Origin: Thiosocius teredinicola
GTDB taxonomy: Bacteria > Pseudomonadota > Gammaproteobacteria > Chromatiales > Chromatiaceae
Assembly (NCBI RefSeq): GCF_002009425.1
Contig: NZ_CP019936.1
Coordinates: forward strand, 4,203,297-4,267,296
Length of the DNA: 64,000 nucleotides
Direction of reading: 5' to 3'
A program made the position numbers and the translations under genes. Shown here piece by piece: positions 20,295 to 40,436 of the stretch (position 1 is the stretch's first letter; each line of letters opens with the position of its first letter). Below the pieces are notes generated by a model that was not told the origin of the DNA, did no database searches, and saw only the letters and a list, made by a program, of their open reading frames with translations.

Positions 20295-21710
20295 ATGGCC
20301 CTGAAATCCTACGATGCAGGCGTTAAAGAATACCGCGACATGTACTGGACCCCGGACTACGTGCCGCTCGATACCGATCTGCTCGCATGCTTCAAGTGCA
20401 CCGGTCAGCCGGGCGTTCCGCGTGAGGAAGTCGCGGCCGCGGTTGCCGCTGAATCATCGACCGGCACCTGGTCGACCGTGTGGTCCGAGCTGCTGACCGA
20501 CCTGGAATACTACAAAGGTCGCGCCTACCGCATCGAAGACGTGCCGGGTGACAACGAATCTTTCTACGCCTTCATCGCCTACCCGATCGACCTGTTCGAA
20601 GAAGGTTCGGTGGTCAACGTCCTGACCTCGCTGGTCGGCAACGTGTTCGGCTTCAAGGCGCTGCGCCACCTGCGTCTGGAAGACATCCGTTTCCCGATCG
20701 CCTACATCAAGACCTGCGGCGGACCGCCGGCCGGTATCTCACTCGAGCGCGACCGCCTGTCGAAGTACGGCCGTCCGATGCTGGGTGCGACGATCAAGCC
20801 GAAGCTCGGTCTGTCGGCGAAGAACTACGGTCGTGCCGTCTATGAATGTCTGCGCGGCGGCCTGGACATGACCAAGGACGACGAGAACGTCAACTCGCAG
20901 CCGTTCATGCGCTGGCGCGATCGCTTCGAGTTCGTTGGTGAGGCCATCCAGAAGGCCGAACAGGAAACCGGCGAGCGCAAGGGTCACTACCTGAACGTGA
21001 CCGCGCCCGATCCCGAGCAGATGTACGAGCGTGCCGAGTTCGCCAAAGAGGTTGGCTCGCCGATCATCATGCACGACTTCCTGACCGGCGGTTTCACCGC
21101 GAACACCGGTCTGGCCAACTGGTGCCGCAAGAACGGCATGTTGCTGCACATCCACCGCGCCATGCACGCCGTTATCGACCGTCACCCGAAACACGGCATC
21201 CACTTCCGCGTACTGGCCAAGTGTCTGCGTCTGTCCGGCGGCGACCACCTGCACACCGGCACCGTCGTGGGCAAGCTGGAAGGCGACCGTCAGTCGACGC
21301 TGGGCTTCGTCGACCAGCTGCGTGAATCGTTCGTACCGGAAGACCGCTCGCGCGGTGTGTTCTTCGACCAGGACTGGGGCTCGCTGCCCGGCGTCATGGC
21401 CGTCGCCTCCGGCGGTATCCACGTATGGCACATGCCGGCACTGGTCACGATCTTCGGCGACGACTCGATGCTGCAGTTCGGTGGCGGCACCCAGGGTCAC
21501 CCGTGGGGCAACGCAGCAGGTGCGGCAGCCAACCGAGTGGCACTCGAAGCCTCGGTCAAGGCGCGTAACGAAGGCCGCGAGATCGAGAAAGAGGCACGCG
21601 ACATCCTGACCGAAGCCGCGCGTCACAGCCCCGAGCTGGCGATCGCGATGGAGACCTGGAAAGAGATCAAGTTCGAGTTCGACACCGTGGACAAGCTGGA
21701 CGTCGGCTGA
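20295..21710 (+). CDS. cbbL: RuBisCO large subunit, form IA (carboxysomal)
   Basis: A 471-residue protein of the expected length. The active-site segment '[17 protein letters not shown]' carries the carbamylated Lys near residue 194; '[11 protein letters not shown]' and '[19 protein letters not shown]' are further catalytic blocks. It fixes CO2 to ribulose-1,5-bisphosphate inside the carboxysome. As first gene of the cso operon, followed by cbbS and csoS2, it is the carboxysomal form IA. An AACAGGAG ribosome site precedes the ATG. Confidence 0.98.
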
Positions 21711-21760: not shown

Positions 21761-22105
21761 ATGTCCATGAGCAACGAAGTCGGTGATTTTCAAACCGCGC
21801 AGACGCTGGAAACCTTTGGCTTTCTGCCGAAGCTGACCCAGGAAGAAGTGTACGACCAGATCGCCTACATGATCGCCCAGGGTCTGACCCCGGCCATCGA
21901 ACACGAGCATCCGTCGAACTCGCGTGACCACTACTGGACCATGTGGAAGCTGCCGATGTTCGGCGAACAGGATCTGAACGCGGTCGCTGCGGAGATCGAA
22001 GCCTGCCGCCGCACCTATCCCGACCACCACGTCCGCCTGATCGGCTACGACAACTACACCCAGAGCCAAGGCGTGTGCTTTGTCGTACACGAGGGGCGCG
22101 CCTGA
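21761..22105 (+). CDS. cbbS: RuBisCO small subunit, form IA
   Basis: A 114-residue small subunit with 'FGFLPKLT' (19-26), 'QIAYMIAQG', 'IEH' (46-48), the Trp/Pro pattern W59-W62-P65, '[12 protein letters not shown]' and 'FVVH' at the end. It caps the L8S8 holoenzyme and, in alpha-carboxysomes, helps form the groove bound by CsoS2 N-terminal repeats. It follows cbbL by 50 bp with its own CAGGAG site. A divergent paralogue is encoded at 33470-33769. Confidence 0.98.
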
Positions 22106-22179: not shown

Positions 22180-24468
22180 ATGGCAGCAACAGCACAAAAC
22201 GGCAGGGCACTGGCCCTGGCAAGACGCAAGGCGATGTCCAGCGGTGGCAAGAGCGCGATCGCCAAGAGTTCGGTGTCACCCTCGCCGGCAGCGGCACCTG
22301 CCAGCCCGTCGAGTGCTGCGGCGAGCCCGACGAAAGCCTACCAACCGCGCCGCCAAGCCACCGGCGAAGGCGCTCGCACGGCGTCGCGGGCACGACGTCT
22401 TGCCATGTCGAGCAAAGGCAAGCAGGCGATCAGCAGCGCCGATCGTACCCGTACGGGTAATGAACGCGCCAAGCCGGTTGCAAGCAAAGCTGAGATAAAT
22501 GCATCCAAGCCGAACGATGCCATGACGACCGGCGACGCCGGTTGCGGCTGTGGTTGCGGTGGCGACAAGACCAAACGCAACAAGGCACCGGAGACTTCCA
22601 CGGCCCGTGCCCGTACGCGCCGACCGAAACGCTCCACCCTTGCACAGAATCCGAGCAAGGCCGCTGCACTGGCCCGTCGCCGCGCCCAATCGACGCGTGG
22701 CAAGGCCGGCCTGAGCAACGGCGGCATGTCCGAGGCACAGACCGCGCGTGCGGCCAACCCGCAGCTGTCGGGTCGTGAACTCGCCCAAGCCCTGCGTGAG
22801 CAACGCAGCAAACGTGGCAGCAGTGGTCAGAAGAAAACTGCGCCTACGGGACGTCGGCGCAAACCGCAGACCAACGGCCAAGGCGCAGCCCAAGACGCGC
22901 CGTGGAAAGTCGGTGCCAGTGAAACGACCCAGGGTCAGACCGTCACCGGCACCATGGTCGGTCGCGATAAGACCGTCACCGGCAACGAGGCCAGCACCTG
23001 TCGCGACGTGACCGGCACCGAATACCTCGGAGCCGACATCTTCCGCGAGTTCTGCCAGACCGATCCTGCCAAGACACCGCAGCGCGGCTCGCGTACCTCC
23101 ACGTCACGCGGCAATGCCGTGACCGGCAACGAAGTCGGCCGCAGCAGCAAAGTCACCGGCAACGAGCCCGGCACCTGCAAGCGCGTGACCGGTTCGGAGT
23201 ATGTCAGTGCGCAACAGGACGAAGCCTTCTGCGGCACCAAGCCTGCGCCGGCGGCCAACCGCGTAACCGGTAGCGAGACCCGCAAGGGCAAATCGGTCAC
23301 CGGCAACAACGTCGGTCGCAGCGGCAAGGTCACCGGTGATGAGTCCGGCGCACAGCGCGAACTCACCGGCACCCAGTACACCAATACGACGCAACCGATG
23401 GAAGGTCGCGGCGCACCGGCAAAAGTCGGACAAAGCAAAACGCTGCGTGGCGGCACCGTCAGCGGCACGCTGGTCGGTCGGCGCGAGCGTATGACCGGCG
23501 ACGAAGCCGGTAGCTGCCGCAACGTGACCGGCGACGATTACATCGGCCAGGAACAGTTCACCAGCTTCTGCAAGACCAAGCCGGAGCCGAAAGACCGCAA
23601 GGTCGGTGTCTCGGGCACCGGCGGTGGCGAAGAAGTCACCGGCAGCATGACCGGCCGCTCGCAGCGGGTTACCGGCAATGAGCCCGGCACCTGCAAAGCG
23701 GTTACCGGCACGCCCTATACCGGTAATGAGCAATACGCGACCTATTGCGAGCCGAAAGAAAATTTCGATGCCCGTAAACGCATGGACCCAAGCAAGCGCA
23801 GCTTCGGCAAGCCGATGACCGGCCAGCAACCGTCAGTCGGAGGCAGCATGACCGGCGACAGCAAAGGTGCCTGCGAAACCGTCAGCGGCACGCCCTATGT
23901 CGGTGCCGACCAGGCCGCCCTCGCCTGCCCGGCGGTTGCCGCAGAACCCGGCAGCCCTGACTTTCCGCAACCGCTCGAAGGCGCCCCTTGGGAAGACTTC
24001 AGCGTGCAGTCGCCGTCGCATGCGGCGCAACACGCGGCCCATGCCAGCCATGTAACCGGCTCGCAGTATGAGCAAGGCCAGATCACCGGCCCGTTCGGTA
24101 AAGCCGGCGGCAAGGTCACCGGCACCGAAGAGGCGCGGTTCGGCAAAGGCCCACGCGAACCTCAACCGGTCGCAGCCACAGCCACCGAGATCGACGGCCG
24201 GATCAAGTCGCGCATCACCGGCGAAGGCCAGGATGCCGGCCCGAAGATCACCGGCGACGACTGGGATCGCGGCGACCGGGTGACAGGTACCGAGGGTGCT
24301 TCAGCATCATTACGCAACACTACGCGTCGCGGTACACCGATGAGCGCAATGGGTGCGCGCGCCGCCGAACCGGCAGAAGCTCCGCAGCCGGTCAGCAAGG
24401 TAACCGGTAGCAGCGGCAATACCGCACAGGGCTCGCTGGTGACCTACTCCGGCGGTGCTCGCGGCTAA
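22180..24468 (+). CDS. csoS2: Carboxysome assembly scaffold CsoS2 (full-length form)
   Basis: A 762-residue, highly repetitive, disordered scaffold. Residues 1-~220 hold four basic RuBisCO-binding N-repeats (e.g. 'GRALALARRKAMSSGGK', 'ASRARRLAMSSKGKQAI'). Residues ~243-525 are M-repeats built of 'VTGNxxGRxxxVTG' and 'GTCKxVTGxxY' units with paired Cys. Residues ~530-762 form the C-region that anchors the shell, ending in a Gly-rich 'VTYSGGARG' tail. An unusual Cys/Gly run, 'GCGCGCGG' (121-128), lies between the second and third N-repeats. A -1 frameshift site at the M/C border would give a short CsoS2A form of about 532 residues. Confidence 0.96.
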   Translation: MAATAQNGRALALARRKAMSSGGKSAIAKSSVSPSPAAAPASPSSAAASPTKAYQPRRQATGEGARTASRARRLAMSSKGKQAISSADRTRTGNERAKPVASKAEINASKPNDAMTTGDAGCGCGCGGDKTKRNKAPETSTARARTRRPKRSTLAQNPSKAAALARRRAQSTRGKAGLSNGGMSEAQTARAANPQLSGRELAQALREQRSKRGSSGQKKTAPTGRRRKPQTNGQGAAQDAPWKVGASETTQGQTVTGTMVGRDKTVTGNEASTCRDVTGTEYLGADIFREFCQTDPAKTPQRGSRTSTSRGNAVTGNEVGRSSKVTGNEPGTCKRVTGSEYVSAQQDEAFCGTKPAPAANRVTGSETRKGKSVTGNNVGRSGKVTGDESGAQRELTGTQYTNTTQPMEGRGAPAKVGQSKTLRGGTVSGTLVGRRERMTGDEAGSCRNVTGDDYIGQEQFTSFCKTKPEPKDRKVGVSGTGGGEEVTGSMTGRSQRVTGNEPGTCKAVTGTPYTGNEQYATYCEPKENFDARKRMDPSKRSFGKPMTGQQPSVGGSMTGDSKGACETVSGTPYVGADQAALACPAVAAEPGSPDFPQPLEGAPWEDFSVQSPSHAAQHAAHASHVTGSQYEQGQITGPFGKAGGKVTGTEEARFGKGPREPQPVAATATEIDGRIKSRITGEGQDAGPKITGDDWDRGDRVTGTEGASASLRNTTRRGTPMSAMGARAAEPAEAPQPVSKVTGSSGNTAQGSLVTYSGGARG
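22900..23756 (+). repeat. CsoS2 middle-region (M) repeats
   Basis: Imperfect coding repeats of ~55-60 codons, each with three V/I-T-G motifs and Cys-containing 'GTC' and 'FC/YC' positions. They are protein-level repeats under divergent codon use rather than a CRISPR or satellite. In known CsoS2 they contact the shell and set carboxysome size. Confidence 0.85.
23760..23777 (+). promoter_or_regulatory. Predicted -1 programmed ribosomal frameshift site in csoS2
   Basis: The heptamer A AAT TTC (23760-23766) fits X XXY YYZ exactly in the zero frame (codons GAA AAT TTC for residues 527-529). After a -1 slip the next codons are CGA TGC CCG TAA, so translation stops at 23775-23777. This would yield a short CsoS2 lacking the C-region. 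Short and long CsoS2 forms made by such frameshifting are known from Halothiobacillus; the site here is my own reading. Confidence 0.7.
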
Positions 24469-24523
24469 GGCCGGCATCGATTGAACTGATACAGCAACGC
24501 AACACGAACTGACGACAACCGAC

Positions 24524-26086
24524 ATGCTTCGCTCAACCCGACAATCCGGTCGACTTCGTACCCGCCAGGGCACGCGGTCAACGCAGCCTGCACCGCTGCG
24601 CCGCCCCGGCGCGGTCGAGCAGTTGGCCGTCGGTAGTCGCACGCGTGGACCGTCAGGCCGCAGCCCTGCGCGAGCCGGTACTGTGTCTCACCCGCTGTGC
24701 CGCAGCGAAGAGAATCAGCGTCTGTTCGGCTATGAGCGCGACGTGAAAGCGGCGTTCGACAATATCGTGCCGACGCTGAAGCAGATCTCCGCCCTGCAGC
24801 ACGAGGCTGACTTCGAACAGCAGGCGCAGAAGATTGCCCGCGCTCAGCTTGGCTTTGAACTGCCGCAAGAGATCCTTGCGGATGCCTGGGTCACACAGCT
24901 GGACATGCGTCGTCTGTTCGCCTGGTGCGTGTTCTCGACCTATCGCCACTTCTGCGACGACTACTATCGGAATGATCCGCTGGCCGTCGATGCCGGTCGT
25001 GGCGCCGATGACTTCGATAGCTTCCTGCAGGCCTGCGGTTTCCATACGCTCGATGTCTCGCCATGTGCCGACGGTCGCCTTGCGCACCTCGTGCGTTATG
25101 TACTGCGTCTGCCGCAACAGTCGGTACGCCGCAAGTCGTATGCGGGTGCCCTGTTCGATATCGAGGACAGCATTCAGAAGTGGACCGAGGTCGAGCTGGG
25201 TCGCTTCCGCGAAGGTCAGCCGAACACGGCCGATGCACCGACACGCTACTTGAAAGCGGTGACGTATCACTACAGTTCAGTCGACCCGGAACACCAGGGT
25301 TGTGCCGCGCACGGCTCGGACACCGCCAAGGCCGCACAGGCCGGACGCGAGCGTCTGTATGCCTTCCGCGAAGCGATCGAAAACAGTTTCTGTTGCGGCG
25401 CCTCGATCGATCTATTGTTGATCGGTCTGGACACCGACACCGACGCGATCCGCGTCCACGTACCTGACGCAGAGGGCGCCATCGACCTCGACACCGCGGT
25501 CGATGCGTTGTCCCTGTTCGACGCGACCGCCCGGTCGAGCGCGTCTGAAGCCACGCATGCGATTGCCGATGCGATCCGCGCCTGTACGCCGGATGTTCAG
25601 CCCGGTATGGCGCAGCTCGTCGAGCGCCTGATCGAAAACAATCTGTCGCAGATCGCCTATGTGCGCAGCAACCATGGTGATCACTACGCCGACATCGGCC
25701 ACGCCGAACGCTTCATCGGTGCCGGCGTCGGCTTCGAAGAGATCCAGCTGCGCAACCTGATGTACTTCGCGTATCTCAATACCGTTGAGGAAGCGACCGC
25801 CGATCTGGATGTCGGTATCAAGATCTTTACCGGCCTGAACGTGGCGCACGGTCTACCGGTTCCCGTCATCGTTCGATTCGATCACCACGGTCAGGTGCCA
25901 GGTTCGCGTGAACGCGCCGAACAGCACTGTGCGCGTGTTTCCGAAGCACTGCAGGCGCGCTTCGACAGCCTTGCCGAACAGGGTCTGCTGCATGTGCTGC
26001 AGGTGACGCGCGACTGTGACGCGGCGGGTTCGATCGACTTGCTGGCGTGTTCAGTCAATGCACATAAGCAGGCAGGAGGTCACTGA
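24524..26086 (+). CDS. csoSCA: Carboxysomal carbonic anhydrase CsoSCA (CsoS3)
   Basis: A 520-residue epsilon/beta-type carbonic anhydrase. The zinc site is visible as C181-x-D183-x-R185 ('SPCADGRLAH') with H249 and C260 ('YHYSSVDPEHQGC'), matching the spacing of the characterised Halothiobacillus enzyme. It converts bicarbonate to CO2 next to RuBisCO. The first ~55 residues are basic and disordered, as expected for the RuBisCO-tethering tail. The start codon assignment follows that tail. Its stop overlaps csoS4A by one base. Confidence 0.96.
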   Translation: MLRSTRQSGRLRTRQGTRSTQPAPLRRPGAVEQLAVGSRTRGPSGRSPARAGTVSHPLCRSEENQRLFGYERDVKAAFDNIVPTLKQISALQHEADFEQQAQKIARAQLGFELPQEILADAWVTQLDMRRLFAWCVFSTYRHFCDDYYRNDPLAVDAGRGADDFDSFLQACGFHTLDVSPCADGRLAHLVRYVLRLPQQSVRRKSYAGALFDIEDSIQKWTEVELGRFREGQPNTADAPTRYLKAVTYHYSSVDPEHQGCAAHGSDTAKAAQAGRERLYAFREAIENSFCCGASIDLLLIGLDTDTDAIRVHVPDAEGAIDLDTAVDALSLFDATARSSASEATHAIADAIRACTPDVQPGMAQLVERLIENNLSQIAYVRSNHGDHYADIGHAERFIGAGVGFEEIQLRNLMYFAYLNTVEEATADLDVGIKIFTGLNVAHGLPVPVIVRFDHHGQVPGSRERAEQHCARVSEALQARFDSLAEQGLLHVLQVTRDCDAAGSIDLLACSVNAHKQAGGH

Positions 26087-26364
26087 TGAAGATCTGCCAG
26101 GTCGAACGTCCGCTGGTTGCGACCAACCGTATCGCCGAGATGGAACACAAACACCTGCAGGTGGTACGCGATGGCAGCTCGTCGCAGGTCGCGGTCGACG
26201 CGGTCGGCGCCAAACCGGGAGACTGGGTGATCTGCGTCGGCAGCTCGGCGGCGCGCGAAGCAGCCGGCAGCAAGGGTTATCCGAGCGACCTGACGATTGT
26301 CGGGATCATCGACAAGTGGCCCCCGGAAGGTATGGAGGCCGCCGATGCAGATCCTGCAGGTTGA
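26086..26364 (+). CDS. csoS4A: Carboxysome shell vertex protein CsoS4A
   Basis: A 92-residue member of the CcmL/EutN pentamer family: 'MKICQVERPLVATNRIAEMEH' (read as two blocks), 'AVGAKPGDWVICVGSSAARE' and 'IVGIIDKW'. Pentamers cap the twelve vertices of the shell. The gene overlaps csoSCA by one base and csoS4B by 20 bp, so the three are translationally coupled. Confidence 0.97.
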   Translation: MKICQVERPLVATNRIAEMEHKHLQVVRDGSSSQVAVDAVGAKPGDWVICVGSSAAREAAGSKGYPSDLTIVGIIDKWPPEGMEAADADPAG

Positions 26365-26614
26365 AGGTTCGCTGGTGTGCACCTCGCGTATCGAAGGATT
26401 AAAGCACTCGGTGTTTCGCGTCGTACGCGATGCCAGCGGCAAGCGCCAGGCGGCCACCGATCCGGTCGGCGCCAAACCGGGCGACTGGGTGTTTCTGGCG
26501 AGCGGATCGGCCGCGCGTTTTGCGGCCGGCGATTTCGAGATCCTCACCGATCTCACCATCTGCGGGGTAATCGACCAATGGCCGCCGCACGATGCAACTG
26601 ACCAAGGTCGATGA
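26345..26614 (+). CDS. csoS4B: Carboxysome shell vertex protein CsoS4B
   Basis: An 89-residue paralogue of CsoS4A: 'MQILQVEGSLVCTSRIEGL', 'PVGAKPGDWVFLASGSAAR' and 'GVIDQWPP'. The ATG at 26345 lies inside csoS4A; an upstream in-frame start would only read through that gene. Two pentamer genes in tandem are standard for alpha-carboxysomes. Confidence 0.96.
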   Translation: MQILQVEGSLVCTSRIEGLKHSVFRVVRDASGKRQAATDPVGAKPGDWVFLASGSAARFAAGDFEILTDLTICGVIDQWPPHDATDQGR

Positions 26615-26662
26615 ACAACACAGGTTTCAACATTCGCCCTGATGGGGCTACAGGAGACAACG

Positions 26663-26956
26663 ATGGCAACTGAAAACTACGGCATCGCACTAGGCATGAT
26701 CGAGACGCGTGGCTTGGTGCCCGCCATCGAAGCGGCAGACGCCATGACCAAGGCCGCAGAGGTGCGGCTGATCGGACGTGAATACGTCGGCGGCGGCTAT
26801 GTCACGGTGCTGGTCCGTGGCGAAACCGGCGCCGTCAACGCAGCAGTGCGTGCCGGTGCCGACGCCTGCGAACGCGTCGGCGATGGTCTGGTCGCGGCGC
26901 ACATCATCGCGCGTCCGCACCGCGAAGTTGAGCCGGTACTCGGCAACAACAAGTAA
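26663..26956 (+). CDS. csoS1A: Carboxysome shell hexamer CsoS1 (first copy)
   Basis: A 97-residue single BMC-domain protein, 'MATENYGIALGMIETRGLVPAI', 'VTVLVRGETGAVNAAVRAG' and 'AAHIIARPHREVEPVL'. Hexamers tile the shell facets and have a small charged pore. The ATG at 26663 is preceded by ACAGGAGA. The next gene encodes a near-identical copy; letter assignment (A/B/C) is by convention only. Confidence 0.96.
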   Translation: MATENYGIALGMIETRGLVPAIEAADAMTKAAEVRLIGREYVGGGYVTVLVRGETGAVNAAVRAGADACERVGDGLVAAHIIARPHREVEPVLGNNK

Positions 26957-26995
26957 CCCCAATAACAGACAGCTACTTCTAAACGGAGAAAGACA

Positions 26996-27313
26996 ATGGC
27001 AAGTGAAAACTACGGTATCGCCCTGGGTATGATTGAAACGCGTGGCCTGGTGCCCGCCATCGAAGCGGCAGACGCCATGACCAAGGCCGCCGAGGTGCGA
27101 CTGATCGGTCGTGAGTTCGTCGGCGGCGGTTACGTCACCGTGCTGGTTCGCGGCGAGACCGGCGCGGTCAACGCAGCCGTGCGTGCCGGTGCAGACGCCT
27201 GTGAGCGCGTCGGCGACGGCCTGGTAGCCGCACACATCATCGCGCGTCCGCACCGCGAGGTTGAGCCCGTGTTGCCGACCGGTGGTGCTTCCGACTCGAA
27301 GGCTGCGGCGTAA
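26996..27313 (+). CDS. csoS1B: Carboxysome shell hexamer CsoS1 (second copy)
   Basis: A 105-residue BMC protein almost identical to the preceding one over its first ~92 residues but with a longer C-terminal tail ('PTGGASDSKAAA'). DNA differences are spread over silent positions, so the pair is an old duplication kept similar by selection or conversion rather than an assembly repeat. The tail length resembles the CsoS1B type. Confidence 0.95.
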   Translation: MASENYGIALGMIETRGLVPAIEAADAMTKAAEVRLIGREFVGGGYVTVLVRGETGAVNAAVRAGADACERVGDGLVAAHIIARPHREVEPVLPTGGASDSKAAA

Positions 27314-27335
27314 CGCAGCCTGGGTGAACTGACCG

Positions 27336-27812
27336 ATGTTGACCGCACGGGCAGACGACAGGGTACTGGGTTACCTGGGCAGAGCGCTCAGCCTGGAACT
27401 CTCGGCAGTGCAGATGTACAGCACCCAGGCGCGACTTGTCGCGTCCTGGGGACTGGCCGATGCCGCCGCCCGTCTGCGCAACGAGTCGGAAGAGGAACTG
27501 CAACACGTGAACCGCATCATCGAGCGCATGCTTGCAACCGGTGTGGCTCCTAGCGCCTCTCAGCTCCGCCCGGTTCGCCTGGCCCGCGACCTGTCGTCGC
27601 TGCTGCAGATCAATCAGCAATTCGAGAGCGAATTGATCGAGCTGTATCGCAACGCTGTAAATCATTGTGCGCGTGTTGGAGACCACGATCATCGAACGTT
27701 TTTCGAGGCATTGCACGAAGACGAACGCTCGCACCACCAGGAGTTGTTGGGCTGGCAGGCCAGCCTGCAACCGGCGACGGCCGCCGCGAATGGACGACGC
27801 AGCTACCGTTGA
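27336..27812 (+). CDS. Carboxysome-operon bacterioferritin-like protein
   Basis: A 158-residue four-helix protein with ferritin-type metal ligands: 'LSLELSAVQMYSTQA', 'ESEEELQHVNRII', and 'EALHEDERSHHQELL'. Bacterioferritin-like genes are a regular member of proteobacterial cso operons but their role there is not settled; iron or redox buffering is possible. It lies 22 bp after csoS1B. The start codon ATG at 27336 has no strong ribosome site. Confidence 0.85.
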   Translation: MLTARADDRVLGYLGRALSLELSAVQMYSTQARLVASWGLADAAARLRNESEEELQHVNRIIERMLATGVAPSASQLRPVRLARDLSSLLQINQQFESELIELYRNAVNHCARVGDHDHRTFFEALHEDERSHHQELLGWQASLQPATAAANGRRSYR

Positions 27813-27837
27813 CACCCGTTATCGCAGGAGACAAACC

Positions 27838-28095
27838 ATGGCAACTGAATGGCAAGAACGCAACCGACCCAATCGCCTTGAGAAGCGCTACGAATTCGCC
27901 AACTACGATGCATTGCGCGATTTTCTAGATGCCGCGGCCGATCTGTCCGAGCGCGAGAACTACTACCCCGACATGGGTTTCGGCCGTGACTACGTGAACA
28001 TCACGATTCATGCGGACGACACCGACAAGTCGATCCTCCCGGCACAACGTGAGTTTGCCGGAGCACTCGACCAATTGCGCGGGGCCGCGGCCTGA
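27838..28095 (+). CDS. Pterin-carbinolamine-dehydratase-like RuBisCO assembly factor (acRAF)
   Basis: An 85-residue protein resembling pterin-4a-carbinolamine dehydratase ('RYEFANYDALRDFLD', 'GFGRDYVNITIH'). The dehydratase motif histidines are not retained as a set, as is known for the carboxysomal branch, which acts as a RuBisCO assembly chaperone (acRAF). I chose the ATG at 27838 after the GCAGGAGA site. It sits between the ferritin-like gene and mcdA. Confidence 0.85.
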   Translation: MATEWQERNRPNRLEKRYEFANYDALRDFLDAAADLSERENYYPDMGFGRDYVNITIHADDTDKSILPAQREFAGALDQLRGAAA

Positions 28096-28107
28096 CCGGC
28101 ATCCGTC

Positions 28108-28731
28108 ATGACCATCATCGCGCTGGCAGGCAACAAGGGTGGATCGGGCAAGACCACCCTGGCTATCAACCTGGCCAGCGCGCTGGCGCGGCGTGGCAGC
28201 GTGGTGTTGCTGGATGCAGATCCCCAGGGTTCGTGCGTTCACTGGTATACCGCTTGCGACGGCAATGGCCCGTTTGCAGTGTTTGCAGCGGCTGACGACC
28301 TCGATGCAATGCTCGATGCCAATAGAAACGGCAATGACTTCCTGCTGATCGACTGCCCACCGGCAGTGAACTCACCGCAGACCCTGACCGCTCTCTCGGT
28401 GGCCGACCAGGTGTTGATACCGGTGATGCCCTCACCCCTGGATATCTGGGCGGGCCTGCATGTCGAGCCGGTATTGCACCAGGCAAGAGAGAACAACCCC
28501 GCCCTCGAGGCGCTGCTGGTCATCAACCAGTTGGAACCACGCACCAAGCTGTCGAAGCTGGCGCGCCAGGCCCTGAATGAGCTGGGGCTGCCGACCGCCA
28601 CGACCGCGCTGCGGCGACGCGTTGCCTATCGACGGGCGATGCTGGAGGGGCGAAGCGTATTGGACATAGGCTCACGCGGCGCTGAAGCGGCCAGCGAGAT
28701 CGAACAACTGACCGAAGAACTGGTGAGATGA
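28108..28731 (+). CDS. mcdA: Carboxysome positioning ATPase McdA (ParA family)
   Basis: A 207-residue ParA-type ATPase with a deviant Walker A 'NKGGSGKTTLAINLA', Walker A' 'VVLLDADPQGS' and Walker B-like 'FLLIDCPPA'. In alpha-carboxysome organisms such ATPases bind the nucleoid and, with McdB, space carboxysomes along the cell. The next gene, two bases away, has the hallmarks of McdB, which supports this role over plasmid partition. Confidence 0.92.
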   Translation: MTIIALAGNKGGSGKTTLAINLASALARRGSVVLLDADPQGSCVHWYTACDGNGPFAVFAAADDLDAMLDANRNGNDFLLIDCPPAVNSPQTLTALSVADQVLIPVMPSPLDIWAGLHVEPVLHQARENNPALEALLVINQLEPRTKLSKLARQALNELGLPTATTALRRRVAYRRAMLEGRSVLDIGSRGAEAASEIEQLTEELVR

Positions 28732-30159: not shown

Positions 30160-30540
30160 GCGCGGTGCGAGCGCATGCCGCGTACGCGCGCACGATGAAC
30201 TCGCGAGCGTCTTGCGGCGCGCCGCGGCTGTGCCGATGGTTGCATTGATTGCTCGAACTCAGCCAAGCGATCGACATATAAATCGCGCTTGATCGGACCA
30301 TCCGACGCACGCCGGACCCTTGCAGCGATGTATCGACCCGAAGCTTGGAATCCCGACCGCACCCGTACTCAACGGTGGGTCAAGCAAGATGATAGCAATA
30401 CCCTTGCCCAGCGCCTTGCCGGCAACCCATTTTCCCTGCGCAAATTCATGTTATGCCGTTGATTCCGGCGTGCTAGCTTGCCTCGCTGCCGCAATTGCGG
30501 GGCATGGTTTGATCAAAAGCATGCTTGGAGGAGAGTAAGA
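30160..30540. other. Intergenic region before the dsrE-like gene
   Basis: A 381-bp stretch between the terminator and the secreted DsrE-like gene. It should hold that gene's promoter. A TTGGAGGAGAGTAAGA ribosome site lies at its right end. I see no gene in it. Confidence 0.5.
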
Positions 30541-31044
30541 ATGCTGAAAATAACACTAATGGCGGCCGGACTTATGTTGACCATGATCGGTTCTGTGCAG
30601 GCACAAGAGGCTTTCGACCCGGGCGTCCCGGCGCCGAAGGTTGCCGGTGACTACTACGATGGCGCCGAGAAAACGGTGTTCCACGTCAGCGAAACCCGCG
30701 ACGAGAAAGGCTACTTGGGCATTCTCGGCAACGTCAACAATTACGTGAAGGCCTTGCAGGCCACCGGCAAGAAGACAGACGCGGTCATCGTGATGAATGG
30801 CGATGGTCTCGGCATGTTGCAAATGGCAAAAGAGATCGAGCTCGAGGCAGAGGCGAAACTGCCCGGACGCATCACCGCGATGAAAGAAAGCGGGGTCAAG
30901 TTTCTGGTCTGCTACAACACGCTGGTCGGCCGCAAGATCGCTTTCGAGGATCTCTACGACGCGCATGAGGGAGACATCATCCCGTCCGGCGTCGCCGAGG
31001 TGGGACGACTACAGGCGATGGGCTATCGCCTGCTCAAACCTTGA
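30541..31044 (+). CDS. Secreted DsrE-family protein
   Basis: A 167-residue protein with a signal peptide ('ITLMAAGLMLTMIGSVQAQ', cleavage after the AQA-like site). The mature part has the DsrE/DsrF fold pattern: 'TDAVIVMNGDGLGML', and a single Cys in 'VKFLVCYNTL'. Cytosolic DsrE proteins relay sulfur in sulfur oxidisers; exported relatives of this size are common next to sulfur or redox genes but uncharacterised. The ATG at 30541 has a strong GGAGGAG site. It is monocistronic, ending at a large hairpin. Confidence 0.82.
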   Translation: MLKITLMAAGLMLTMIGSVQAQEAFDPGVPAPKVAGDYYDGAEKTVFHVSETRDEKGYLGILGNVNNYVKALQATGKKTDAVIVMNGDGLGMLQMAKEIELEAEAKLPGRITAMKESGVKFLVCYNTLVGRKIAFEDLYDAHEGDIIPSGVAEVGRLQAMGYRLLKP

Positions 31045-31070
31045 TGACTTCTTGAGCAACTGAGAAGACG

Positions 31071-31104
31071 CGGGCCGGGCGATGCTCCGTCATCGGCCGG
31101 CCCG
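31071..31104. terminator. Bidirectional hairpin between convergent genes
   Basis: A 14-bp stem with one mismatch (CGGGCCGGGCGATG / CATCGGCCGGCCCG) and a 6-nt loop lies between the convergent DsrE-like and ParA-like genes. No T-run is present on either side, but the stability and position suit transcription termination from both. Confidence 0.65.
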
Positions 31105-31120
31105 AATGCATTGACGCGCC

Positions 31121-31882
31121 TCAGGTTGCCGCGTGCAACTGGATAACGTCGGCTGAAGCTTCGTTACCCGGCACAGCCTGGGGGATCAGATCGGCAACCT
31201 GATTCAGCTGTTGCTGCCAGCGACCATACCAGGCTTTGGCGCGTTGACGATCCAACACCGACAGGCAATCGCCTTCGACGCGATTCGCCGCCGCCCAGAA
31301 GCTCAGATTCTTCCAGTCGATATTGGTCATGACGTTGTCATCGAGCTTCGCCAGATCGATGACGCGCGCGCCGCGTGCCTCGGCCTGGGTCTTGGCTTGC
31401 GAACGATCGAAGAAGGCGTCGAAGTTGCTGCCGCGACCGTGGTTGCGAACAACGACAAACGATACGCCACGATGATCGGCGAAATCGTCGATCACGCGCT
31501 GCAGCAGATCGACGGAATTGCGGCTGCCGTCGGTCACGTGCCAGATGGTAACCGGGATATCCAGTTCATCGGCCAGTTCGAGTACACCGCTATCCTGTAC
31601 CCAGCTCTGCAGCGCGCTGGCGCTCTGAGCCGGCAGATCGACCAGTACCACCTGATCGGCGTCCATCGCGGACAGCAGAATGCCATCAGCACTGGCGTTG
31701 TCGCGCAGGTTCAGCGGCTTGGTGTAGTCGGTATAGAAACGCAACAGGTCGCCATGCGATTGATCACCATCCAATGCCACGAATGGCTGGTTGCGATCGA
31801 TGAATACCTGCGCAAGCAGACGCGCCACGGTGGACTTGCCGACACCGCCCTTCTCACCGCCGACGAGATGAATATGGCTCAT
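31121..31882 (-). CDS. ParA/MinD-family ATPase of unknown role
   Basis: A 253-residue P-loop ATPase with 'GGEKGGVGKSTVARLLAQ' and 'VVLVDLPAQSASAL'. The nucleotide-binding region resembles the ParA/CobQ family, but the C-terminal half is unlike McdA or plasmid ParA and matches the type often labelled mobilisation or conjugal ATPase. I chose the ATG at 31880-31882 just before the first strand. No ParB-like partner follows. It may be a second positioning ATPase linked to the carbon-concentrating genes, but its neighbourhood is the only hint. Confidence 0.78.
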   Translation of the reverse strand: MSHIHLVGGEKGGVGKSTVARLLAQVFIDRNQPFVALDGDQSHGDLLRFYTDYTKPLNLRDNASADGILLSAMDADQVVLVDLPAQSASALQSWVQDSGVLELADELDIPVTIWHVTDGSRNSVDLLQRVIDDFADHRGVSFVVVRNHGRGSNFDAFFDRSQAKTQAEARGARVIDLAKLDDNVMTNIDWKNLSFWAAANRVEGDCLSVLDRQRAKAWYGRWQQQLNQVADLIPQAVPGNEASADVIQLHAAT

Positions 31883-32164
31883 GACCCTATGCTCCTTGAT
31901 GGTGCCTTGCACCAATATAGTTCATTGATTTAACGAGGTTTTCTGCATCCGGCCGGACCGAAGGCGGGCGGATTATACCGATCGTTTATAACAAGGCTAG
32001 AAGCAAAACACGGCTTTGGTAAATCCGAACGGTGAGCGAGATCAAACATCGGTCAATCCGCTCGCCGCCGGAACAGCTTTCAGCCATGCGCCGAATGCGG
32101 CTTGCAGGCGCGAATGCAGTTGGGTTTATCCGGGTTGCGGGGCGCACCGAGCCGCAGCGTGCGG

Positions 32165-32749
32165 CTAACCGACCCTGCGCTGAGGCATCAGCGTTTGCGG
32201 CTTCGGCAAACGCCGTGTCTTCTCCAACATGCGCAACGTGGAGAGGTTGTTGTTGTAGCGCGGCACGTCGGGCAGATCGACCCAGGCGACGGCGTTCGAT
32301 TCGTGGCTGCCGGGGATATCGAGGCGATCGTCGATCTCCACCAGAAACCGCATATCGTAGTGTCTGTGTTGTGGCCCACGTTCGCTATGTGGAATGGTGT
32401 GCACGTCAACATCGAACAACGCGCTGCTTACCAGATGGATATGTTCCGCCGGCAGGCCCGTCTCTTCCTGGGTCTCACGCAGTGCGACGCGCAGAATGTC
32501 ATGGTCGTTGTCGGCATGCCCGCCCGGTTGAAACCACTGAAAGTGTTTGCCGTGATGCAGCAACAGCACCCGGTCGCGCGCCGGGTTGACAACCCACACA
32601 GAACCCGTGATGTGCCCCGCCACCAACTCGCGATCGAAGCAATCGGGATGTTGCTCGATGAAGCGTAGCGCGCGGGCAACATAGCCGGCCTCCGTATTGA
32701 ACGGTGTGCGGTAGTGCAGAAGCAAGCCGATCAAGGTGGACCGATGCAT
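32165..32749 (-). CDS. Nudix hydrolase downstream of csoS1D
   Basis: A 194-residue protein with the Nudix box 'GGHADNDHDILRVALRE' followed by 'TQEETGL' and a preceding 'FQWFQPGG'. The N-terminal ~45 residues are helical. The start codon lies 2 bp after the csoS1D stop, so the two are co-translated. A housekeeping role against damaged nucleotides, or removal of inhibitory sugar phosphates or nucleotides in the carboxysome context, is conceivable; the substrate is not readable from sequence. Confidence 0.85.
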   Translation of the reverse strand: MHRSTLIGLLLHYRTPFNTEAGYVARALRFIEQHPDCFDRELVAGHITGSVWVVNPARDRVLLLHHGKHFQWFQPGGHADNDHDILRVALRETQEETGLPAEHIHLVSSALFDVDVHTIPHSERGPQHRHYDMRFLVEIDDRLDIPGSHESNAVAWVDLPDVPRYNNNLSTLRMLEKTRRLPKPQTLMPQRRVG

Positions 32750-32751
32750 GC

Positions 32752-33384
32752 TCAGGTCCCCGCCGGGTTCTGTATCGCAGCGATGGCCGCTGCTGCCGCT
32801 TCGTCGACATCGCCCTCGCTGCCGGCCAGCGTCAATCGACCATAGGCCCCGACGGCGCGTACATCGATCAACGTGATATTGGCGGCCTTTTCAGCCTGGT
32901 TGGCGGCATACACGATATAGCCGGCCGGTTCGGTTTCGAGGATAAACATACTCTGCCCCGGCAGAATCATTGAGCCTCGTCGATCCTGGCGGTTGATCAG
33001 CACCGTATGATCCGGCGTCATGCCGCGAATGATTTCCTGCCAGGCGATGCGACACGGCTCCCTGTGTTCCTGGCGCGCACCCATGCGGTTAAGCAGGATG
33101 CGCCCTGCTTCGACAACATCGCTTTGGTCGCGCTGGTGGATAACCATTGAACCGTAGGCACGTTCCACGACCTGCTGCGCCAGGTGCACGCGGGTCGACT
33201 TCAATGCAATGTCGGTCAGGCGGTGTACCGCCATACCGGGCGACACCTCAACCCAGAGGCACGCATCCCCGGGCACAGGCAGAAAGCCCTGCGATACGGT
33301 CGCCATGTACTCGGCGAGCTGTGGCTGCAGCGAGTCGATGTACACATAGGTGCGCAGCGAGATATTGCCGATGTTTGCCTGCAT
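32752..33384 (-). CDS. csoS1D: Tandem-BMC shell protein CsoS1D
   Basis: A 210-residue pseudohexamer-forming protein with two BMC domains. '[15 protein letters not shown]', '[20 protein letters not shown]' and '[11 protein letters not shown]' match CsoS1D, with the Glu74-Arg75 pair that gates the large pore; the second domain ends '[17 protein letters not shown]'. It would form double-layered, gated trimers that pass RuBP and 3-PGA. I chose the ATG at 33382-33384 by homology; the frame stays open to 33426. It is encoded apart from the main operon, on the opposite strand, as in some other proteobacteria. Confidence 0.93.
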
Positions 33385-33469
33385 ACCGCTTACCGACCCC
33401 GCAACCGGCCGCGGCACGACCTGCATCGTTCAGCAAAGGCGGCGATGCATCGCTCGCCGCGCGCATCGG

Positions 33470-33769
33470 CTAGGGTTGATGCACCACGAACGAGAAACGA
33501 CTGTGGAACGAATAATCTTCGATCTGCAGCCGCACGTGATGGTCCGCGTGTTCCTCGCAGCAACGGTTGAGATCGCTGAACAGGCGGTGCGGGTCTCCGC
33601 CGTAACAGCGTGGCGTTCCCCAGACTTCCCACTTGGTATAGCGTGGTGCAAGCTGTTCGGTGTGCTCGATACAGATCACACAGCCCTTGCGCAGGCAATG
33701 GCCGATCTGCGACAGCACGCGATCGCGATTGCTTACATCGTGTTCGGCGGCACTCGCTGACGATGTCAT
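33470..33769 (-). CDS. Free-standing RuBisCO small-subunit-like protein
   Basis: A 99-residue protein that aligns almost without gaps to CbbS of this window (residues 19-99 against CbbS 31-110): 'QI' (21-22), 'IEH' (34-36), W47-W50-P53, 'DHHVRL' (76-81) and 'FVVH' (94-97) all fall at the same spacing, offset 12-13. It lacks the N-terminal 'FLPKLT' arm of CbbS. It has six Cys (25, 30, 33, 55, 70, 71) against two in CbbS. A CAGGAG site precedes the ATG. It is first in a unit with csoS1D and the Nudix gene. It could bind or cap RuBisCO, similar to the small-subunit-like domains of CcmM in beta-carboxysomes; this is inference. Confidence 0.85.
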   Translation of the reverse strand: MTSSASAAEHDVSNRDRVLSQIGHCLRKGCVICIEHTEQLAPRYTKWEVWGTPRCYGGDPHRLFSDLNRCCEEHADHHVRLQIEDYSFHSRFSFVVHQP

Positions 33770-34554
33770 GTGTGAAGCTCCTGCTTGTTGTCGGTTGCAC
33801 AAGCACAGCGTCTTTTACAGGCAGACACTGCATTAGGTGTGGCAGGTTAGCCACCCCGACGAAGCAGGAATAATCGATATCGGCACCCGCGGCCGGGCGC
33901 CCTTGTCTATGCTCGATAGATGCCAGACGACCCATCGACCGGGCCAATGGCAAGCGTGCATGAACTCGCGAGAATCGCACGACGACAGCCAAACCGTGTC
34001 ACACGACAATGCCGGCAGGCATGGTGTCCCACCGTACGTTGCAGGTGGTCGGTTCGGGGTGGTGCATGGAAATTCTCCGCTTTTGGCTTGCGGACAGTTA
34101 TAAGCGCGTCGCCTCTTTGTTAAAAACAGATACTTTCGATCTAACCCATCGACGATTATCAATCATTGGTTTGCCCGCCTGGCGCGAGCCGTCGATGAGC
34201 GCCTTATAACCCCACCGATCAGTGGCATTTGCCTCAAGGGCCGTGGGCTCAAGGCGCGGCGAGATTGCAACTGTCGGCACCTGTGCACGAGATGCACCCG
34301 GACTACGCGTTGACTGTAGTCATTGGCAATCACGTATCGACGAAAGCCTATCGAAAGAATTCGAATTATCGAATTGTTTTGTCAAAGCACGCTCGCAAGA
34401 CTCTGCCACGTGACGGTTTGGCGGTGAGTTCAATGCACGGGCAACACACAATACGAGCGCGGAAAAGACTGACGAGCGCCACCGCGATGGCGACACAAGT
34501 CACTGCGCGTTGCGCTGCAATCACCCATTGGGCACGGCCATTGAGGTGTGCGCG
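33770..34554. promoter_or_regulatory. Divergent regulatory region between the csoS1D unit and the dab operon
   Basis: A 785-bp stretch, locally AT-rich around 34090-34170 and 34350-34385. It must carry promoters for both divergent units. It contains an inverted repeat at 34358-34375 and two TTATAA boxes near 34098 and 34204. Open frames in it have poor codon character and I do not accept any as genes. Confidence 0.55.
34358..34375. promoter_or_regulatory. Inverted repeat upstream of the dab operon
   Basis: AATTCGA-ATTA-TCGAATT is a perfect 7-bp dyad ~180 bp upstream of the DabB-like start, in an AT-rich island. It looks like a dimeric-regulator operator. LysR-type control by CbbR or a CO2-responsive relative (CcmR-like) would be expected but is not shown. 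Confidence 0.4.
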
Positions 34555-36234
34555 ATGAACCAGCCGATGCTCTACCTGATTCTTCTGCCGCTACTGGCCG
34601 CCGCCGGCGGATGGCTGTTCTCCTCGGTCTCGCGTCAGGCCGGTGTACGCATAAGCATTGCCGGCACCATCGCTACTTTTTTTGTTGCGCTATGGGCGCT
34701 CTGGATGGCACTGAGCGGCGCACCGCCCACCACGGTCGCCATCGGATCAGCCTGGGGAACTTTGACATTCGACCCGCTGAGTTCGCTCATGGCGGTTGTC
34801 ATATCCGGCATCAGCCTGATCGTGCACGTCTATTCACGGCGCTACATGGCGGGCGAGCGGGGCTACACCCGCTTCTTCGTGCTGCTCGACTTGATGACGG
34901 CTGCGCTACTGTTGATGGTCAGCGCCGGCGACCTGATCACGCTGCTGGTGGCGTGGCACCTGATCGGTGTGCTGCTGTACTTCCTGCTTGGCCAGGAAAT
35001 GAGCAATCACACGTCGCACCGCTACGCCGGGTGGACCTTTCTAACCTACCGCTTCGGCGACCTACCGTTGGTGTTGGCGGCAGTGTTGCTCTACCAGGCT
35101 TTCGACACTTGGTCGTTGCCGGCTATCTTCGCCGCACTCGGCGAAGCACCCGATGCGCGTACCGTCTTCGATCTGCCGTTGGCCGAGACCGTTGGTGCGC
35201 TGATCGCGTTATCGGCATTTGCCCGCTCGGCACAATTCCTGTTGCACACCTGGCTGCCCTACACCATGAGCGGGCCGACCCCCGTATCCGCACTGATGCA
35301 CGCCGGCATCGTCAACGCCGGTGGCTTTTTGATCAACCGCTTCGCGCCCTTGTTTGTACATACCGATGGTGTATTGCATTGGATATTCATCGTCGGCCTG
35401 GTGACGGCCATCGTCGGTTCGGTATTGATGCTGGCGCAAAACGATATCAAGAAGGCGCTCGGCTACTCGACCATGGGCCAGATGGGATTCATGGTGATGG
35501 AGTGTGGTGTCGGCGCCTTTTCGCTGGCGGTATATCACCTGATCGCACACGGCCTGTTCAAGGGCACGCTGTTTCTCGGCGCCGGCGGCGTGATCCATCA
35601 GGCACGCAAAAATGACGGCGTACCGAAAGACGATCTGTATACCTTCGTCGTCGAGCGACGCCCCGCAAAACAGCGTCGACCCTGGCTGCTGATGGCCGCC
35701 GTCACGTTGATCGTACCGGTCGTTATCCTGATCGTTGCGCACTGGCTGGTGGCCAATGATTTCTTCCAGAAACAGGGCGCCATCGTATTGCTGTTCTTCG
35801 GCTGGGTGACTGGCGCACAGTTGATATTTGCCGCCTATCGCATGCGTACCGAGAACACCCGACGCCTGCTGGGACTGATCCTGTTTTCGTTCACCATCGT
35901 GGTGGTCGGCTACACCCTTATCGCGCATGCCTTCGATGTATTCCTGTACCCGGACGAAGTATTCCGCGCGCAGATCTACGCATCCGCCGGCATCGACATC
36001 TTCTGGTTCGATGTATTGGTGATTCTGGTGACCCTGGTGGTCGTGTTCGGCTGGCTGATCACGTATTACGCACAGAACAATGGCGGACGCCGCGGCCTGC
36101 AGGCGAGTGCCGTATGGCGTCGCTTCTACACCCTGGTGGCCTGCGAGTTCTTCGTCGCCGCGATTTACCGCCGCCTATCGGATGCACTGCTGGGTGCTGC
36201 GACCCGTCTTAATGCCATGTTGAGGTGGTCTTGA
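34555..36234 (+). CDS. dabB: DabB-like proton-channelling subunit (NuoL/MrpA-type)
   Basis: A 559-residue membrane protein with about 14-16 hydrophobic helices, of the proton-conducting antiporter family shared with complex I NuoL. Core signatures are 'TWLPYTMSGPTPVSALMHAG' and 'DIKKALGYSTMGQMGFM'. With DabA it forms the DAB complex that couples cation flow to trapping CO2 as cytosolic bicarbonate. The ATG at 34555 has GAGG upstream. It is the first gene of a four-gene operon. Confidence 0.9.
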   Translation: MNQPMLYLILLPLLAAAGGWLFSSVSRQAGVRISIAGTIATFFVALWALWMALSGAPPTTVAIGSAWGTLTFDPLSSLMAVVISGISLIVHVYSRRYMAGERGYTRFFVLLDLMTAALLLMVSAGDLITLLVAWHLIGVLLYFLLGQEMSNHTSHRYAGWTFLTYRFGDLPLVLAAVLLYQAFDTWSLPAIFAALGEAPDARTVFDLPLAETVGALIALSAFARSAQFLLHTWLPYTMSGPTPVSALMHAGIVNAGGFLINRFAPLFVHTDGVLHWIFIVGLVTAIVGSVLMLAQNDIKKALGYSTMGQMGFMVMECGVGAFSLAVYHLIAHGLFKGTLFLGAGGVIHQARKNDGVPKDDLYTFVVERRPAKQRRPWLLMAAVTLIVPVVILIVAHWLVANDFFQKQGAIVLLFFGWVTGAQLIFAAYRMRTENTRRLLGLILFSFTIVVVGYTLIAHAFDVFLYPDEVFRAQIYASAGIDIFWFDVLVILVTLVVVFGWLITYYAQNNGGRRGLQASAVWRRFYTLVACEFFVAAIYRRLSDALLGAATRLNAMLRWS

Positions 36235-36235
36235 T

Positions 36236-36994
36236 ATGTCGTCGATCGGCTGGCTGCTTGCCGCACTGTTTCTGCCGCTGTTTCCGTTCAGCATGGTGTT
36301 CAACCGGCTGCTCGCCCGCATCGAGAACACCTGGTTGCGCATCGCACTGTTGATCGGATGGCCGGCCGCGGGCCTATCGATCCTTCTCGCGACCGAAGCG
36401 ACGCCGCCTGCATGGGTCGCCCATTGGAGCGTGGCGACCGCCTTGCTGTATGCGTTTCGCGCGTTGACGTTGCGTGATCTGCCGCTCTGGCTTGGCCATA
36501 TAGCCACATCGGCCTGGGCGCTGTTGTGGTTGCCGATTGTGTTCGGCGACGCGGATACCTCGCTTGCGCCGCAACTCACGGCGTTCAGCGTGCCGCTCGT
36601 CCTGCTGGCCTGGTTGACCGGGCACCTGGAAAAAATCTTCGGCGCAGCATATGCCGGGGCTTTGGGCGGCCTCGCGATCGATGTGCCGCGTCTTGCCGGT
36701 TTACTGGTGGTCGTCGTGCTCGCAGCAATCGGCACACCGCTGTTTCCCGGCTTCTTTGCCCTGCTCGGCATGGTCAACGATCTATTGCCTGCACAACCGG
36801 TGACCGCCATCGGCGTGCTGCTGGTGTGGATGTTGTGGGCATGGGCCGGCATGCGCATCCTGCAAGGGTTGGTCGTTGGGGCGAGCGATACCCGTACGCG
36901 GTCCGACATCGGTTGGCTGCATGCCGGGGCACTCAGCGCAACGCTAGTGATATTCGCGATGGGTGGAATCTGGCTTTCGGGGAGTCTGGTATGA
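36236..36994 (+). CDS. Small antiporter-like membrane subunit of the dab operon
   Basis: A 252-residue hydrophobic protein with about seven membrane helices, starting one base after the dabB stop and overlapping dabA by 4 bp (ATGA). Segments such as 'GTPLFPGFFALLGMVNDLL' recall the C-terminal half of NuoM/NuoN-type antiporters. Two-gene DAB systems lack it, so it may be a further ion-path subunit. Coupling with dabA suggests it is part of the complex. Confidence 0.75.
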   Translation: MSSIGWLLAALFLPLFPFSMVFNRLLARIENTWLRIALLIGWPAAGLSILLATEATPPAWVAHWSVATALLYAFRALTLRDLPLWLGHIATSAWALLWLPIVFGDADTSLAPQLTAFSVPLVLLAWLTGHLEKIFGAAYAGALGGLAIDVPRLAGLLVVVVLAAIGTPLFPGFFALLGMVNDLLPAQPVTAIGVLLVWMLWAWAGMRILQGLVVGASDTRTRSDIGWLHAGALSATLVIFAMGGIWLSGSLV

Positions 36995-40113: not shown

Positions 40114-40436
40114 AGAACCTGAATTTCAGCCCATTGAAGAAACTCGAGATCATTCTCGGCGGCGAGCACCGCAGTTTCGCCACCGATTTATTGGACCGTG
40201 CCGGCGTGAAAGGCTACACCATCGTCAACAACCTCTCGGGCAAAGGCAGCCACGGCTTTCATGAAGGCCACCTGATGTTCAATGAAGACGACGTGTTGAT
40301 CATGATCATCGCCGCCGTGCCCGAAGAGCTGGTCAATCCGATCCTGCAGGGATTTGCCCCGTTCTATAACGAACACTCCGGGGTGGTCTTCATCTCGGAC
40401 ATCCAGGTCACGCGATTGGTGAAGTTCAGCGGTTGA
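40110..40436 (+). CDS. PII-like signalling protein of the dab operon
   Basis: A 108-residue ferredoxin-like PII-family protein: 'KKLEIILGGEHRSFATDLLDRAGV', 'GYTIVNNLSGKGSHGFH' and 'VIFISDIQV'-like end. It resembles carbon-linked PII-like proteins (CPII/SbtB class) without the GlnB uridylylation Tyr loop. It overlaps the dabA stop by 4 bp (ATGA). It probably senses nucleotides or bicarbonate and regulates the DAB complex. Confidence 0.85.
   Translation: MKNLNFSPLKKLEIILGGEHRSFATDLLDRAGVKGYTIVNNLSGKGSHGFHEGHLMFNEDDVLIMIIAAVPEELVNPILQGFAPFYNEHSGVVFISDIQVTRLVKFSG

Follow-up and report, generated by a model that had tools for sequence, protein, structure and literature searches.

In the current view, α-carboxysomes collect their RuBisCO with the help of the disordered protein CsoS2, and β-carboxysomes with that of the small-subunit-like modules of CcmM. 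The window that we analyzed (the whole stretch of Thiosocius teredinicola DNA, 64,000 nucleotides in length) contains an α-carboxysome (cso) cluster with an ordinary gene for the RuBisCO small subunit, and in addition a separate gene whose product resembles a small subunit. This raises the question of what such an extra protein does at a carboxysome locus. We use the name RbcSL for the product of this gene and for the family to which it belongs.

A small-subunit-like protein at a carboxysome locus

The features of the window on which the analysis is based are the following.

20295..21710, plus strand: cbbL, large subunit of carboxysomal form IA RuBisCO (an ORF, placed in the CbbL tree; presumed to be cbbL from its sequence)
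21761..22105, plus strand: cbbS, ordinary small subunit (PF00101, 131.7 bits; PDB 7yyo, E = 6e-53)
22180..28731, plus strand: rest of the cso cluster, namely csoS2 (PF12288, E = 1.3e-172) and the genes that, from their sequences and conserved synteny, we take to be csoSCA, csoS4A, csoS4B, two csoS1, bfr, acRAF and a parA-type gene
32165..32749, minus strand: NUDIX hydrolase (PF00293, E = 2.4e-14), starting 2 bases past the end of csoS1D
32752..33426, minus strand: csoS1D, encoding a BMC-T shell protein and lying directly downstream of rbcSL (PF00936, above the cut-off)
33470..33769, minus strand: rbcSL, free-standing RuBisCO small-subunit-like protein of 99 amino acids (PF00101, PDB small subunits, AlphaFold2/Foldseek, 27 further orthologues)

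The csoS1D product also matches the NCBIfam CcmP model (E = 1.8e-70, 236.9 bits), a score under the cut-off of 340 of this β-carboxysome model. A scan of positions 32000-34700 for promoters found no sigma-70-like site and was uninformative; the same scan detected two minus-strand terminator-like sites, each inside the csoS1D or the NUDIX gene, and none between rbcSL and csoS1D.

The rbcSL ORF consists of 99 codons and has an ATG start behind an AGGAG sequence. Its product scores 51.5 bits against the PF00101 (RuBisCO_small) model (E = 1e-13), the curated cut-off of which is 27, and is thus a member of the small-subunit superfamily. This significant match bears out an earlier note on this DNA, which had proposed, from the letters alone, a genuine free-standing small-subunit-like protein. 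The one-gap alignment to CbbS of the window, with shared motifs at the same spacing, that was described there was also recovered by BLASTP (24 of 86 residues identical, 28%; E = 4e-11). Among small subunits in the PDB, the best phmmer match had an E-value of 1.3e-10, and the top scores were those of red-type sequences. Three genes of the genome itself exceed the PF00101 cut-off, namely the cbbS that belongs to the cso operon, another cbbS that scores normally, and rbcSL.

An AlphaFold2 model of RbcSL had a mean pLDDT of 83.4, with residues 1-7 below 50. When this model was searched with Foldseek, 49 of the best 50 of 150 rows were titled as RuBisCO entries (best E = 8.7e-07), and the remaining one, 8uhi_I, is a RuBisCO small subunit according to its phmmer match; these best 50 of 150 rows included no chain of an SSUL, the small-subunit-like type of domain found in CcmM. 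The model of the orthologue from Allochromatium vinosum, which we take to be G105:C1:3112421-3112678, has the same core (pLDDT 79.3; residues 7-27 below 50). RbcSL is therefore predicted to have the small-subunit fold. It belongs to the same family (PF00101) as CbbS/RbcS and has the same predicted fold, which speaks for the main rival of the reading that we develop below: RbcSL could be an alternative small subunit that occupies the S site of some holoenzymes and gives them other kinetics or another docking face. We consider this rather doubtful, for the reasons given in the following sections.

The RbcSL family and its sequence signature

When 210 Chromatiales genomes were searched with RbcSL, 137 contained a match at E 0.001; from their scores and locations, most of these matches are ordinary CbbS. 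Orthologues were recognized in 27 of the 210 genomes (L004-L030, the one in the window included) and in G224, which belongs to another order, giving 28 in total. In a tree with 29 form IA and 21 red-type CbbS sequences, these 28 form a single clade (support 100/99); judged from the sequences, RbcSL is a separate, well-supported family that is distinct from the carboxysome CbbS. With regard to a possible origin from red-type or form IA CbbS, the trees place RbcSL outside both, on long branches. All 28 ORFs are free-standing and encode 99-132 amino acids (with start codons chosen by us), and none is a domain of CcmM or of an activase. Two other Chromatiales sequences with RbcSL-like scores (L031 and L032) are red-type CbbS according to the tree and were left out of the family.

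We also searched two wider draws, one with 369 genomes from the class and one with 398 from the phylum, scoring the best 12-13 candidates per genome. In the class draw, csoS2 is present in 72 genomes and RbcSL in two (its own genome and G224); twelve genomes had a match at E 1e-12, the other ten of which were excluded since their best hits are red-type CbbS bearing an arm. The second hit of G355 is a form IA CbbS. In the phylum draw, csoS2 is present in two genomes and RbcSL in its own genome only, and of the twelve genomes with a match at E 1e-13 the other eleven were excluded as red-type CbbS (L093-L103). In these draws, RbcSL thus looks rare outside the Chromatiales. A scan of genome contigs with two narrow peptide patterns yielded 12 loci, among them loci of Thiocystis minor, Thiocystis violacea, Thiorhodococcus drewsii and Thiococcus pfennigii; as none of these 12 is titled Allochromatium, absence from the scan does not prove absence elsewhere.

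Besides forming a separate clade, and coexisting with a normal CbbS in the cso operon of the window, RbcSL differs from CbbS at several conserved positions. The arm motif F[SG]xLP, present as F[SG][YF]L-[PH] in all 50 CbbS sequences compared, is found in none of the 28 RbcSL proteins, in agreement with the lack of an N-terminal CbbS arm pointed out previously. The Phe of the LPxF motif, likewise present in 50 of 50 CbbS, is also lost in all 28, and the residue after it is aromatic in 27. Both losses count against an alternative small subunit. Finally, the Trp that follows the first helix (helix A) in 24 of 29 form IA and 21 of 21 red-type CbbS is replaced in every RbcSL by a cysteine, Cys30. 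Apart from the start Met, ten residues are invariant in the family (C25, C30, W47, W50, G58, C70, R80, L81, S90 and V96). The invariance of W47, W50, R80 and L81, together with a nearly invariant E35, is much as in CbbS, and this is a second point in favor of a protein that resides in the S site.

The product encoded in the window contains six cysteines, as had been counted (residues 25, 30, 33, 55, 70 and 71), and the earlier note had thought of a cysteine-rich redox switch. In its general form this idea states that RbcSL is a cysteine-based redox sensor or a metal-binding regulator, for which the small-subunit fold is only a scaffold. In its support, C25, C30 and C70 are present in 28 of 28 proteins, and C30 stands in the place of a CbbS Trp. 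However, these three are the only invariant cysteines, as C33 (17 of 28) and C55 (19 of 28) vary within the family, and C70 recurs in 50 of 50 CbbS, just as 17 of 21 red-type CbbS share C25. The redox-switch idea therefore rests mainly on C30, which in these alignments is the only invariant cysteine special to the family, and we regard it as weak and a sensor or metal-binding role as unlikely.

Another position of interest is Tyr96 of CbbS, which faces CsoS2 and is Tyr in 26 and Phe in 3 of 29 form IA sequences. In the MAFFT column of Tyr96, all 28 RbcSL proteins have Ser, Thr or another residue, and none has Tyr or Phe. The gap placement of BLASTP instead puts Tyr86 of the window protein at Tyr96; residue 86 is Tyr or Phe in 9 of 28 proteins, and 21 of the 28 have an aromatic residue at position 88. 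An apparent loss of the CsoS2-contacting tyrosine therefore depends on which of the two gap placements is used. So, the docking face of RbcSL differs from that of CbbS, with the loss of the tyrosine not established. A crude regular-expression count of N-terminal binding motifs in CsoS2 of genomes with and without rbcSL gave nothing usable.

The absence of an N-terminal arm and the fast evolution of the gene would fit a decaying, functionless copy of cbbS. This explanation is disfavored and, in our judgment, extremely unlikely: of 13 chosen pairs, 11 yielded dN/dS values of about 0.10-0.32 and two yielded none (dS was > 1 in two pairs), and the ten invariant residues have been preserved across 28 genomes. 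In 276 pairs from 24 genomes, the median pairwise protein difference was 0.57 for RbcSL versus 0.19 for CbbS, and the two sets of differences are correlated (r = 0.55; none of 2000 permutations was as high). Thus, rbcSL is under purifying selection and is kept, although it is less constrained than CbbS, from which it differs in changing about three times as much, and it has been inherited largely together with its carboxysome. The size of the difference is also larger than expected for a protein packed in the slowly changing CbbL8 core, which is a further argument against an alternative small subunit.

Gene neighborhoods and the association with carboxysomes

In 11 of the 28 loci (the window, G186, G187, G189, G191, G030, G021, G007, G004, G069 and G224), the same-strand gene that comes next to rbcSL is csoS1D. 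In 13 others, the next recognized same-strand gene after rbcSL, at a distance of up to about 1.1 kb, is cbbL (G104, G099, G105, G181, G100, G020, G178, G073, G179, G120, G071, G070 and G072), an arrangement that again favors an alternative small subunit. G004 and G007 combine both arrangements, in the order rbcSL, csoS1D, NUDIX, cbbL, cbbS. Two loci have rbcSL beside cbbR (G188 and G101), so that the neighboring recognized gene is csoS1D, cbbL or cbbR in 26 of 28 loci, and the gene is conserved beside carboxysome genes. No recognized cso gene was found around rbcSL in G103 (20 kb fetched) and G180 (a 9.3-kb contig); that rbcSL has been kept in G103 is another point against a decaying cbbS copy.

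The position of rbcSL directly 5' of csoS1D suggests that RbcSL may be a partner of this shell protein, through which RuBisCO would be connected with the gated trimer of the shell. The link to csoS1D proposed in the earlier note holds for the window and for the other ten loci of this type, although it is only one of two main arrangements and, at E 1e-10, a csoS1D match is absent in 8 of the 28 rbcSL genomes (G103, G100, G072, G071, G180, G073, G120 and G070), of which G103, G100 and G072 are single-contig assemblies. Because of these eight genomes, csoS1D is not a required partner of rbcSL. Moreover, the csoS1D copy of G104 is truncated (G104:C1:981552-981860), that of G188 has an in-frame stop (G188:C206:8747-9391), and a csoS1D-NUDIX pair is present without rbcSL in G192 and G193. 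We therefore consider a specific partnership with csoS1D very unlikely. The same data have two other implications: the loss of this shell pore protein is apparently tolerated, as its gene is damaged in two rbcSL-bearing genomes and was not found in eight, and the NUDIX and csoS1D genes may be a unit of their own, as the pair persists without rbcSL. In Halothiobacillus neapolitanus, the hypothetical gene between csoCbbQ and csoS1D was described as not conserved among loci in the part of the paper considered here (PMC4633670).

The location of rbcSL upstream of cbbL in many operons would also agree with a protein that acts earlier, helping RuBisCO assembly as a chaperone or holdase of CbbL in the manner of acRAF, as would the lack of conserved features of a resident subunit. 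However, many of these operons already contain acRAF, and no chaperone-like feature was seen in RbcSL, and we find such a role improbable.

The steadier association of rbcSL is with the RuBisCO of α-carboxysomes and not with csoS1D. Among the 210 Chromatiales genomes, 78 contain csoS2, which is found in 26 of the 27 genomes that have rbcSL and in 52 of the 183 that lack it (Fisher p = 6e-12, a value that overstates independence because the genomes are related). The only csoS2-negative genome with rbcSL, G030, is a fragmented assembly of 88% completeness, in which one contig holds rbcSL and, next to it, csoS1D. The tie of the gene to α-carboxysome loci, seen at first in the window, hence extends to other genomes of the order, and the gene is conserved and under purifying selection. 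In a CbbL tree, made by a quick method, midpoint-rooted only and including 69 of the 79 genomes that have csoS2 (G224 and 78 Chromatiales), rbcSL occurs in 18 of 19 genomes of one clade (the exception being G041), in 6 of 46 of the clade of the window and in none of 4 other rows. The ten genomes that were not placed are G186, G188 and G191, which have rbcSL, and G042, G113, G115, G116, G118, G153 and G185, which do not; G030 is not in the tree. The gene is thus nearly fixed in one branch of α-carboxysomes and scattered in the other. Because G041 lacks it and only a few members of the window's own clade have it, RbcSL is dispensable for carboxysomes generally.

As a separate observation, the PF12288 match of Chromatiales CsoS2 proteins of the second CbbL clade is mostly in two pieces. 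In 12 of 19 genomes, these two-piece matches skip about model positions 186-253, which suggests a different middle region.

RbcSL as a candidate docking factor for RuBisCO

CsoS2, CsoSCA and the SSUL of CcmM bind the same patch of RuBisCO, formed by two CbbL2 dimers and one CbbS, according to the sections of two papers used here (PMC10614612, PMC8580825), the second of which places the CcmM SSUL in the groove between two RbcL subunits and an adjacent RbcS (PMC8580825). Like the SSULs of CcmM (PDB 6hba, 9fwv and 6mr1) and of Rca, the cyanobacterial Rubisco activase (6has), RbcSL is a carboxysome-linked relative of the small subunit that lacks the N-terminal arm of CbbS; the solved SSUL chains that we compared have 4-11 residues ahead of the matched helix and so have no arm. 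Two of the three SSUL types compared have a His four residues after the Cys of helix B, and the same column is His in 27 of 28 RbcSL proteins. There are also differences. An SSUL forms part of a larger protein (CcmM or Rca), whereas RbcSL is free-standing and occurs in bacteria with α-carboxysomes. In addition, two of the three SSUL types have, besides the helix-B Cys, another Cys at the third residue past the shared Trp, whereas RbcSL, compared by eye, has a Trp at the former position and only the helix-B Cys.

We tentatively favor, as the best of the explanations considered, that RbcSL is a small-subunit-fold docking factor for the form IA RuBisCO of the α-carboxysome and not an ordinary subunit. 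Binding to RuBisCO is inferred here by analogy. This reading is favored because the protein has a predicted small-subunit fold and is linked to carboxysomes without the features of CbbS residence, and because an armless docking relative exists in the form of the CcmM SSUL. RbcSL would have split off from CbbS long ago, and would bind to RuBisCO that is already assembled; the most likely site would be the groove that two large subunits form with a small subunit, or its immediate vicinity. Being monovalent, it could compete with CsoS2 and CsoSCA, limiting or timing the condensation and packing of RuBisCO, and in this way might tune the number of RuBisCO sites that are open to these two proteins. 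Alternatively, an RbcSL dimer would bridge holoenzymes.

Several observations argue against a docking factor. Although the RbcSL profile also matches the CcmM SSUL (E = 1.2e-6), 21 small-subunit sequences of the PDB score above the best SSUL (top score 52.7 bits versus 31.8 bits). The grouping of RbcSL with SSULs in the tree is weak (support 70/78, with long branches and only three SSULs). As a single domain, RbcSL is not multivalent, unlike CcmM. The LPxF Phe is lost, yet an aromatic residue nearly always follows directly, the loss of Tyr96 hinges on the gap placement, and the gene is missing in G041 and in 40 of 46 genomes of the window's CbbL clade. A more specific version holds that, in the α-carboxysomes of purple sulfur bacteria, RbcSL is a free-standing SSUL-like protein that arose from a small subunit independently of CcmM, docks in the L-L-S groove as CsoS2 and CsoSCA do, and governs the condensation of RuBisCO; the small-subunit fold would then have been recruited for assembly in both lineages of carboxysomes. 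We put this forward with less confidence, as a possibility only. In general terms, RbcSL is an extra, reduced relative of the small subunit, encoded by a gene of its own in some of the purple sulfur bacteria and related organisms, mostly beside carboxysome genes; it probably binds RuBisCO and may tune its assembly or packing.

If a docking factor is indeed encoded, a dedicated small-subunit-like protein in an α-carboxysome lineage would imply that both solutions for gathering RuBisCO can coexist, and RbcSL would be a small RuBisCO-binding protein for carboxysome engineering. Its role is directly testable in A. vinosum, a cultured strain that carries the gene; the reference list of the genome paper (PMC3368242) includes a title on a genetic system for this organism.

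The earlier note regarded the protein as a new element. We found no paper describing the family in the open-access full-text literature, judged by titles and the openings of abstracts, and a 2026 review on α-carboxysomes makes no mention of SSUL, SSLD or RbcS. The gene itself is not entirely new, however, because the passages used of the 2011 genome paper of A. vinosum already report a second small-subunit gene at the carboxysome locus, with its role left open (PMC3368242). From locus and genome, we infer that this gene is the rbcSL orthologue, even though the passage in question puts it "downstream of rbcL", whereas rbcSL of G105 lies upstream of cbbL in terms of transcription. In a 2024 transcriptome of A. 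vinosum, Alvin_2749-2750 were about 2-fold up on pyrite, and the extra small-subunit gene is not mentioned in the passages of that paper considered here (PMC11267869). A case that resembles it by description, and may or may not belong to the family, is that of Pseudonocardia sp. N23, for which the part of the paper at hand reports a short extra cbbS of 63 amino acids upstream of cbbL in an α-carboxysome locus; it lacks L53, P54 and F56 and was judged non-functional by the authors (PMC9164163).

Two other regions flank the genes discussed. Between cbbR and the NUDIX gene (positions 30478-31915) the window encodes a DsrE-like protein on the plus strand and a ParA/TraL-like NTPase on the minus strand, neither of which was among the hits kept at the 36 other loci compared. 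On the other side, at positions 34510-40436, the carboxysome locus is adjoined by genes that we presume to be dabB-like and dabA-like, together with a gene for a P-II protein (PF00543, E = 1.2e-20); this group is a probable inorganic-carbon uptake unit.
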